This document shows, one piece after another, positions 469-4,585 of a DNA stretch of 32,893 bases; positions within the stretch are counted from its first letter, which is position 1; the number at the start of each line of letters is the position of its first letter. The stretch is taken from assembly GCA_903847935.1 (NCBI GenBank), contig CAINEX010000018.1, forward strand, positions 1 through 32,893. The letters are read 5' to 3'. Position numbers and translations under genes: made by a program. The stretch comes from an uncultured Spartobacteria bacterium (GTDB taxonomy: Bacteria > Verrucomicrobiota > Verrucomicrobiia > Chthoniobacterales > UBA6821). The notes beneath the pieces were generated by a model. It worked only from the letters and a program-made list of their open reading frames with translations. It was not told where the DNA came from and ran no database searches.

Positions 469-518
469 TGCCGGTCATTGTGCTCAAGGGGACTTCCCCA
501 TTGACACAATGACCGGCA
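469..518 (+). promoter_or_regulatory. Long hairpin in rplL-rpoB spacer (attenuator/RNA-processing candidate)
   Basis: A perfect 14-bp outer stem (469-482 with 505-518) continues, after single-base bulges C483 and A500 on opposite sides, into TCAA/TTGA (484-487 with 501-504) and GGGG/CCCC (488-491 with 496-499), closed by an ACTT loop. That gives 22 pairs in 50 nt. There is no U-tract after it (the next bases are purine-rich), so it is not a textbook intrinsic terminator. In E. coli the same spacer carries a partial attenuator and an RNase III cleavage hairpin that set the ratio of L7/L12 to RNA polymerase. A similar role here is inferred from position and structure. Confidence 0.7.
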
Positions 519-778: not shown

Positions 779-3700
779 ATGTCTGACCGTATCTCCTTTG
801 GCAAATTGTACGAAGCTATCCAACCACCGAACCTCATTGAGCTGCAGATCAAGTCCTATGAGGAGTTTTTCCAGACGGGTGTCGATCCCTCAAAAAGGAA
901 AAACGTTGGTCTTCAGGCCGTCTTCCGTGAGTTTTTCCCTATCTATGGCTTCGAGGAGAAGTCGCATCTGGACTTTGTCAGTTACACCTTGGAGGAGCCC
1001 AAGATCGGGCCCGTAGAGTGTCAGATCGAGGGTGAAACCTACAGTGCCCCCCTTTATGTGACCTTCCGATATAAAGACGAGAAGTCCACCAAGGAGGAGA
1101 AGGTCTACATGGGCGAAATTCCTCTCATGACCAAGCAGGGCACCTTCATGGTCAATGGTGCCGAGCGGGTGGTTGTCAGCCAGTTGCACCGTTCTCCAGG
1201 CATCTGTTTTGAGAGCGACGTGCATCTCAACGGGAAGCTGCTTTACGGCTTCCGCATCATTCCTGATCGCGGTTCTTGGACGGAAGTGCAGTTTGACACG
1301 AACGACTTGCTTTATGTCTACCTTGACCGACGCAAGCGTCGTCGCAAGTTCCTTGCCACAACGTTCCTCCGCGCCCTTGGTTTCCCGACCGATGAGGAGA
1401 TTGCCGCCCTGTTCTACAAGATTGAATCGTTAAAACTCACTGACAAACTCAACGACGAGGTGCTGAGCACCAAGGTCCTTCTACAGGATGTCAGGGAGGG
1501 GGATGCCATCATTGCAAGGGCCTACGAACCACTGACACCCGCCATCGTGCGTGACCTTCTTCGATTGGGTCATTCCACAGTCAAGGTAATCGACACCAAG
1601 GAGGACGACACAATCGTCAAGTCACTCAAGCGTGACACGACAAAGAACGAGGAGGAGGCCCTCAAGGATATCTACCGCAAGCTTCGTCCCGGCGATCCTC
1701 CGACAGTACAAAATGCACGCGGCATGCTCAAGCGCCTCTTCTTCGATTCCAAGCGCTACGATCTTGGGCGTGTTGGACGTCATAAAATCCAGCAGAAACT
1801 CGGTCTGGATCCTAAAATCGACGACCGAATCCTTCGCAAGGAGGACATCGTTGAGTCAATGCGTTACCTTCTAAAGCTCAGGCGTGGTGACGGCATGACC
1901 GATGACATCGATCATTTGGGCAGCCGTCGTGTGCGCACGGTGGGGGAGCTTCTTGCCAACCAATGCCGTGTTGGTCTTTCCCGCACCGAGCGTCTCGTCC
2001 GCGAACGCATGGCCCTCTACGATCCCGCAGTCGATCACATCACACCGCAGAAGCTCATCAATCCCAAATCGCTTAGCGCCGTGGTCCGTGATTTCTTCGG
2101 CCGTTCACAGCTGAGCCAGTTCATGGATCAGACCAATCCGCTTTCCGAATTGACGCACAAACGCCGTCTCTCGGCCCTTGGGCCTGGAGGTCTCTCCCGG
2201 GAGCGAGCAGGATTCGAAGTTCGTGACGTTCATCCCTCGCACTACGGGCGCATCTGTCCGATTGAGACCCCAGAAGGTCCGAACATCGGACTAATCAGCT
2301 CTTTGAGCACCTATGCGCGAGTCAATGACTTTGGTTTCATTGAGACGCCGTACCGCAAGGTCATCAATGGCAAGGTTACTGATGAGATCGAGTATCTCAC
2401 CGGAGACCGCGATGAGAATTTCTACATTGCTCAGGCAAATTCAACCGTGGACAGCAAGGGCAAGTTCCTTGGTGAGACTGTTTCTTCGCGTTATCGCGGG
2501 GATTTCCTCGAGATTGAACCGGACAAGGTTCAGTACATGGATGTCTCTCCGAAGCAGTTGGTATCTGTTGCTGCCGGCCTTATCCCATTCCTTGAGCATG
2601 ATGACGCAAACCGTGCCCTCATGGGTTCGAACATGCAACGGCAAGGCGTGCCTCTCCTCATCTCTGAGGCTCCGATTATCGGAACCGGACTTGAGGGCCG
2701 TGTTGCACGTGATTCACGAGCCGTCATTGTCTCCGAGGTCACCGGTAAGGTTGCATCCGTAGACTCACAGCGGATCATCATCACGAAAAACGGGGAGCTA
2801 CCGGAGGGACGCAAGAAGCTCAAGCATGACCCAGAGAACGGCCTTCATGTTTATGAACTCCGCAAGTTCATGCGCTCGAACAGCAGCACCTGTATCAATC
2901 AGCACCCTCTTGTTAAAAAAGGGCAGTCGGTGAAAGTAGGTGACGTTCTTGCAGACGGACCAAACACTGAGAATGGTGAACTCGCTCTAGGTCGCAACGT
3001 GCTTGTCGCGTTCATGCCTTGGAATGGTTACAACTTCGAGGATGCCATCATGATCTCGGAAAGGGTTGTAAAGGAGGACATTTACACGTCCATCCACATC
3101 GATGAGTTTGAAATCGGTGCACGAGACACAAAACTCGGACCCGAAGAAATCACCCGCGATATCCCGAACGTCAGTGAGGAAGCCCTTCTCAACCTTGGGC
3201 CCGATGGCGTGATCCGCATCGGTGCGGAGGTAAAGCCAGGGGATATTCTTGTCGGAAAGATCACCCCGAAGAGCGAGACGGAGCTAGCGCCTGAAGAGCG
3301 TCTTCTGCGTGCCATTTTCGGCGAGAAGGCAGCCGACGTAAAGGACACTTCCCTCACCGTACCATCAGGCACCTACGGTATTGTTATGGACGTGCGCGTC
3401 TCCTCCAAGGAGAAGGCCGCCAAGATCAAGATGACCCCTTCGGAGTCGAAGCGTCAGCAGAAGATGATCCAAGAGGACAACAAGAAGCGGAAGGATGAGC
3501 TCTTCGAGCAACTTACGGAAGCCCTCGCTAATGTCCTTCTTGGCGAGAAGATCCCTCTCGACGTTGTCAACGGCGAGTCCGGAGAGATCATCATCCCGGC
3601 CAATCGTAAGATCACCAAGATGCTCCTACGCAAGCTCGCCGGCGTCTACAATCATGTTGAGATCGACCCAAGCCCGATCCGCAACAAAATCCAGGAGATC

Positions 3701-4585
3701 ATCGGCCAGTTCGAGCACCGTTTTGCCGACCTCGAGAACGAGAAGGAGGAGAATCTCGGCCGTGTCGAGAGCGGCGACGATGTCGATCCCGGAATCATCA
3801 AGCAGGTCAAGGTCTTCATTGCCAGCAAGAGGAAACTCAGCGTTGGTGACAAAATGGCGGGTCGTCACGGTAACAAAGGTGTCGTGGCCAAGATTGTTCC
3901 CGAGGAGGACATGCCTTTCCTCCCGGATGGAACTCCCGTTGACATCGTTCTCAACCCGCTGGGAGTGCCAAGCCGCATGAACGTCGGGCAGGTTCTCGAG
4001 ACACACCTTGGCATCGCCGCAAAGGCGCTCGGATTCAAAGTGGCAACACCCGTGTTCGACGGCATACCCGAGAGTCGCATCCGCGAATATCTCGTTGAAG
4101 CTGGTCAGAAAGAGGGCTTCTCGTGGATTCAGGAAAATGGAAAATCCACCCTCTATGACGGACGCACCGGTGATGTCTTCGACCAGCAGGTTGTTGTCGG
4201 CATCATTTACATGCTCAAACTAGGTCACCTTGTCGCTGACAAGATCCACGCTCGTGCTGTTGGACCATACTCCCTCGTCACCCAGCAACCGCTGGGAGGT
4301 AAGGCTCAGTATGGTGGCCAGCGTTTCGGTGAGATGGAGGTCTGGGCACTTGAGGCCTATGGTGCGGCTTACACCCTTCAGGAGTTGCTCACCGTCAAAT
4401 CGGATGACGTCCAGGGTCGTACACGCATTTACGAGAGTATTGTCAAGGGTGACAACTCGTTGGAGGCCGGCATTCCCGAGTCCTTCAACGTACTCATCAA
4501 GGAGATGCAGGGTCTCGGACTCGATGTTCATGTGGGCCGCAAGGATGCAGCCCAATCCTTCATTGATGAAGCCGCCTCAGTCTGA
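779..4585 (+). CDS. rpoB: DNA-directed RNA polymerase subunit beta
   Basis: Beta subunit of RNA polymerase, forming one pincer of the catalytic cleft. The 1268 residues cover the protein from the N-terminal protrusion/lobe to the C-terminal clamp-proximal end. The rifampicin-binding region is intact and of wild-type sensitive form: D450, H460 and S465 correspond to E. coli D516, H526 and S531. It is followed by the invariant segment [19 protein letters not shown]. The conserved [10 protein letters not shown] stretch and the C-terminal [20 protein letters not shown] stretch are present. The constant numbering offset of 66 shows that the shortening relative to E. coli lies at least partly N-terminal. 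The start has no Shine-Dalgarno sequence. It is followed after 77 bases by rpoC. Confidence 0.99.

Follow-up and report, generated by a model that had tools for sequence, protein, structure and literature searches.

It is a textbook problem how bacteria draw on neighboring genes to make the several copies of L7/L12 needed by each ribosome but far less RNA polymerase, and it has been resolved mostly in E. coli. In that organism the attenuator and the RNase III structure that lie between rplL and rpoB are separate elements; the RNase III site at the junction was reportedly described by Barry et al. in 1980 (listed in PMC5371410), and internal rpoBC promoters around it are said to have been found by Ma, Newman and Hayward in 1981 (listed in PMC10971746). 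The attenuator is placed at the rplL-rpoB junction (PMC4670729) and the RNase III site within the rplL-rpoB spacer (PMC2777011). Our literature search, which covered open-access sources only and whose silence is not proof of absence, turned up no account of the junction in Verrucomicrobiota.

The stretch of DNA analyzed here (32,893 nucleotides, hereafter the window) belongs to the draft genome of a member of the order Chthoniobacterales ('Spartobacteria', Verrucomicrobiota). Among public contigs its RpoB is closest to that of an uncultured Spartobacteria bacterium (94%) and then to those of other Chthoniobacterales. Both genes of interest are on the forward strand and are defined by their open reading frames and translations: rplL, encoding L7/L12, at 58-441, with homologues in relatives that are 57-98% identical and lie directly 5' of the spacer, and rpoB at 779-4585. 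The spacer between them is 337 bp long. The order rplL-spacer-rpoB is the same in all 15 other genomes of the genus, with spacers of 327 to 356 bp.

Shortly after rplL, the spacer is predicted to fold into a hairpin at 469-518 with 22 base pairs and a folding energy of -37.0 kcal/mol (z = -8.7, with none of 200 dinucleotide shuffles as stable). Fourteen outer pairs (469-482 with 505-518) are followed by a bulged C483, four further pairs (484-487 with 501-504), a bulged A500 on the opposite side, and a last set of four pairs (488-491 with 496-499), so that the upper stem and its ACTT loop (492-495) together occupy the stretch from 484 on the 5' side to 499, closed by 501-504. The main stem reappears when 440-560 is folded, and an outer helix between 457-462 and 521-526 is then added across an internal loop. 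No run of T follows the hairpin on either strand, a terminator scan was negative, and the bases that come next are AAAGCGTAAAAG. The initial annotation had drawn exactly this arrangement of helices, bulges and loop, and was correct in describing it as free of a U-tract. No family matched the hairpin at the gathering threshold in an Rfam scan of the window. A repeated palindrome of the REP or MITE type was ruled out, as the sequence occurs at one place in the genome (plus its own reverse complement).

The pairing is conserved within the genus. It had been proposed from the single sequence that the spacers of relatives be compared for compensatory changes, and an alignment of 16 spacers (the window and the 15 other same-genus genomes) finds the pairing kept in those 15 genomes, with seven pairs of the stem changed on both sides. 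Standard pairs make up 85.6% of the cells of the 20-pair structure that was scored, compared with a shuffled mean of 77.8 (0 of 500 as high), and the covariation score of 0.263 exceeds both the shuffled value of 0.129 +/- 0.017 (again 0 of 500 as high) and the values of at most 0.131 obtained with slid partners; the genomes are related by descent, and these shuffle figures are not probabilities nor are the counts independent. The main 14-bp stem is paired in 88.4% of cells and contains five of the two-sided pairs. Changes on both sides are also seen in the outer helix, at 460-523 and 462-521, while its outermost pairs, 457-526 and 458-525, are kept in only 6-9 of the 16 genomes. The 4-bp helix that faces TTGA is often broken in relatives; TTGA itself is unchanged. 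Twelve of the 16 genomes have a U-G wobble at 475-512, which is a pair in RNA but a mismatch in DNA and so points to pairing in RNA rather than DNA.

The same bases hold a promoter pattern. On the 3' side of the hairpin, TTGACA at 501-506 has the form of a -35 element, and TAAAAG at 524-529, 17 nt further on, stands in the place of a -10 element. The 3' arm of the main stem (505-518) shares bases with the -35 and with the promoter spacer at 507-523, and the 3' side of the outer helix (521-526) overlaps the -10. TTGAC (501-505) is invariant in all 16 members of the genus, even where its stem partners differ, and the spacing of 17 nt is equally constant. At this distance from TTGACA the genus has TAAAAG, TAAAAA, TACAAC, TATAAA or similar, with TACTTG in two genomes; the sister genus has TTGACA-N17-TATATT, TACATT or TATAGT at the same place, and a full -10 is found in many families too. 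Judged by its sequence, the 3' arm with the bases that follow it appears to place a sigma70-like promoter for rpoBC inside the hairpin. The weak point of this promoter in the window is the -10, which has no final T in any of the 16 genus members (A at its second position in 16/16, T at its sixth in 0/16), and a promoter scan that required T at the last -10 position did not detect 501-529. Two of the six sister-genus members (L101 and L115) have a different configuration, in which the hairpin ends CTCCTTGACAT, TTGACA is kept, and TAGAAT lies only 7 nt on, too close for the usual spacing of a promoter.

Hairpin and promoter pattern occur together across the order. Our set of rplL-rpoB spacers from Chthoniobacterales comprised 97 sequences representing 13 families, and 88 of the spacers have TTG between the apical loop and the 3' end of the hairpin. 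TANNNT follows TTGNNN at 16 nt in 24 of these 88 spacers and at 17 nt in 13 (37 together), against about one at other offsets, and by our reading of the list these matches are spread over nine families. The best promoter match within the first 180 nt begins in the 3' half of the hairpin in 71 of the 97 spacers, including 16/16 from this genus and 21/21 from family f7, although this half makes up only roughly one seventh of the sequence searched. The -35 is often preceded by A/T-rich DNA. Single matches are weak, with a per-sequence promoter score of P <= 0.05 in only 36 of 97 spacers, and members of family f9 mostly have no clear -10 where one is expected; the strength of the promoter case is its fixed spacing and position across families. 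The match is not incidental, because the spacing of 16-17 nt recurs in many families and TTGAC persists even where the bases paired with it vary. Across 237 kb of the genome there are 50 promoter-like sites, of which only the rpoB site is inside a stem this strong. Outside the order, TTG-N16-18-TANNNT was found in 0 of 33 spacers.

The hairpin has a wider distribution, persisting outside Chthoniobacterales without the promoter pattern. Of 131 Verrucomicrobiota spacers, 80% have a fold with z < -3 in the 100 nt that directly follow the rplL stop codon, compared with 6% for the last 100 nt before rpoB. The arm sequences diverge from family to family while their complementarity is preserved; pairs altered on both sides are seen in the sister genus and in f7, f13, f6 and f10, and the stems of relatives are often only 13-17 bp long. 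The initial annotation had envisaged, in case of conservation within this lineage, an independent solution to the problem of making more L7/L12 than RNA polymerase. That suggestion is not supported, since hairpins behind rplL are common across the phylum and this one is better seen as a shared feature of the junction. What follows the stem varies. Most spacers of the window's genus have 0-2 T in the next 8 bases, T-runs occur at some of the intact f5 and f9 junctions, and those of f5 include terminator-like hairpins (L118, L172, L176). In family c17, which is outside the order and which we read as Opitutaceae, TTTGCC and then a T-run follow the stem in a terminator-like arrangement (TTTGCCTTTTTT).

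The arrangement changes where rplL and rpoB are separated. In eleven genomes, from families f4 and f6, no rplL was found within about 1 kb upstream of rpoB, and in 10 of them rplL was located elsewhere, nine times with readable downstream DNA. Downstream of these nine detached rplL genes there is a comparably strong hairpin together with a U-tract, the median being 6 T in 8 bases compared with 3 where the junction is intact (P = 2e-5). No comparable promoter embedded in a hairpin was seen upstream of the rpoB genes that f4 and f6 have in detached form. The form that is poor in U-tracts and bears a promoter goes with adjacency of rplL and rpoB, as a tendency rather than a rule, and the order uses ordinary terminators where rplL ends the transcript. 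That detached rplL has a U-tract and detached rpoB has no such element makes plain intrinsic termination at 469-518 unlikely, in line with the argument originally drawn from the missing U-tract, and also argues against an operator in the DNA that serves only rpoB. With no T-run on either strand at 469-518, and real terminators after detached rplL, we rejected a plain intrinsic terminator there. The split between rplL and rpoB in several of these genomes (L306-L314) is in itself an unusual break in a usually conserved gene order.

We consider it probable that 457-529 is a composite element in which a hairpin and a promoter both act at the rplL-rpoB junction. The chance that the role of the hairpin is specifically one of processing or protection, rather than partial termination, is slightly under even. 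Under partial termination the hairpin would be an attenuator like that of E. coli, at which a fraction of the transcription arriving from rplL would stop despite the missing U-tract, possibly helped by NusA or Rho. The hairpin is at the position of the E. coli attenuator (PMC4670729), terminator-like forms occur at the same junction in f5 and in the Opitutaceae-like genomes, and the genome has Rho homologues, in the form of two Rho-like genes (G000:C119:21647-22867 and G000:C108:5695-6780) neither of which reaches the curated cut-off of TIGR00767. We nevertheless regard an attenuator as unlikely: the window has no U-tract and most of its genus have few or no T after the stem, whereas rplL genes of the order that stand apart from rpoB do end in U-tracts. 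Nor do we place 469-518 in the family of U-tract attenuators, because the tail that defines them was looked for and is missing.

Another rival is the RNase III site favored by the initial annotation, taken together with a promoter match that is incidental. The genome encodes RNase III (TIGR02191, 233 bits, over the cut-off), the 22-bp duplex is nearly continuous and shows covariation, and the E. coli RNase III site is in the same spacer (PMC2777011). An RNase III site and nothing more is nonetheless very improbable in the face of a promoter pattern whose spacing is fixed in many families and whose TTGAC is kept where the stem partners are not. The remaining alternative is that the palindrome works in DNA, where it would act as an operator or form a cruciform at the rpoBC promoter, and has no role in RNA. 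An inverted repeat does flank the -35 region in all members of the genus, but, unlike a fixed operator, its arms vary in sequence between families while complementarity stays, the U-G wobble at 475-512 would be a mismatch in DNA, and detached rpoB genes have no such repeat. These observations are difficult to reconcile with a purely DNA-level role, to which we give little credence.

The composite reading suggests the following mechanism. In the DNA, TTGACA-N17-TAAAAG would serve as a sigma70-type promoter from which an rpoBC transcript would start near 535. In the RNA, transcripts reading through from rplL would fold into the long hairpin, which would form the 3' boundary of the rplL mRNA, either through cleavage by RNase III or as a block to 3'-5' exonucleases once the RNA has been cut farther downstream. 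The rplL part of the transcript would then outlast the rpoBC part, rpoBC would be supplied by read-through together with the embedded promoter, and hairpin and promoter would jointly give L7/L12 and RNA polymerase in different amounts. Promoter activity, processing or protection, and an effect on the ratio of L7/L12 to RNA polymerase are what we infer from the patterns described above. A gene for RNase E/G is present in the genome alongside that for RNase III. Cleavage of the hairpin by RNase III is only inferred, and the 13-17 bp stems of relatives, which are short for this enzyme, count against the composite reading.

The rpoB leader downstream of the predicted promoter has conserved features of its own. 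A 24-nt block at 535-558 (GTTCCACCTGCCTCAAGTTCTGCA in the window), located at the rpoBC transcript start predicted from the promoter spacing, is strongly kept in the alignment of 16 spacers, with a consensus of about GTTCCACCTGTCCCGAGCCCTGCA and no obvious pairing partner. A second hairpin at 597-636 (CCGCC/GGCGG) is nearly invariant in the same 16 genomes and is followed by TTTT at 640-643. Covariation is uninformative for this hairpin since it hardly varies; together with its T-run it is a possible leader attenuator. The rpoB leaders of f6 and f10 (for example L177 and L109) have a common motif resembling CCCAcTTTTGCCcAAGG shortly after the predicted start, which may belong to a more extensive conserved leader of rpoB.

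The likeness to the E. coli spacer that was originally noted holds in that 469-518 is at the same junction. The two junctions have in common the genes, a hairpin after rplL, a long duplex and internal promoters, here a predicted one; they differ in that here there is no U-tract, hairpin and promoter pattern are in the same bases, and the pattern is confined to one order. Protective 3' structures are an established means of setting operon stoichiometry, and the malE-malF type (PMC5927463) resembles the present case in having a stable hairpin without a U-tract right after the gene needed in excess; unlike that type, the hairpin here has an embedded promoter and the RNA 3' end at it is putative. 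Cappable-seq in Akkermansia has identified -35 and TATAAT-type -10 signals (PMC4782308). The predicted promoter has signals of the same sigma70 type, but its -35 and spacer make up one side, the 3' arm, of a stem that is conserved. In rplL-rpoB spacers of the Akkermansia-like kind the hairpin is kept and this promoter pattern is absent. What sets the present junction apart from the known ones is that the hairpin and the predicted promoter share the same bases across an order.

The rplL-rpoB junction of Chthoniobacterales is a conserved junction with a fused design specific to the order, and the genomes in which the genes are apart are natural controls that make the roles of hairpin and promoter directly testable. 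A more far-reaching proposal, which we put forward tentatively and think doubtful, is that throughout the order the rpoBC promoter is nested in the hairpin that bounds the rplL mRNA, in which case the same bases would set the 3' end of rplL and start RNA polymerase synthesis, and read-through and initiation would compete for the same DNA. If this is true, RNA polymerase would have a built-in means of tuning its own supply relative to that of L7/L12.
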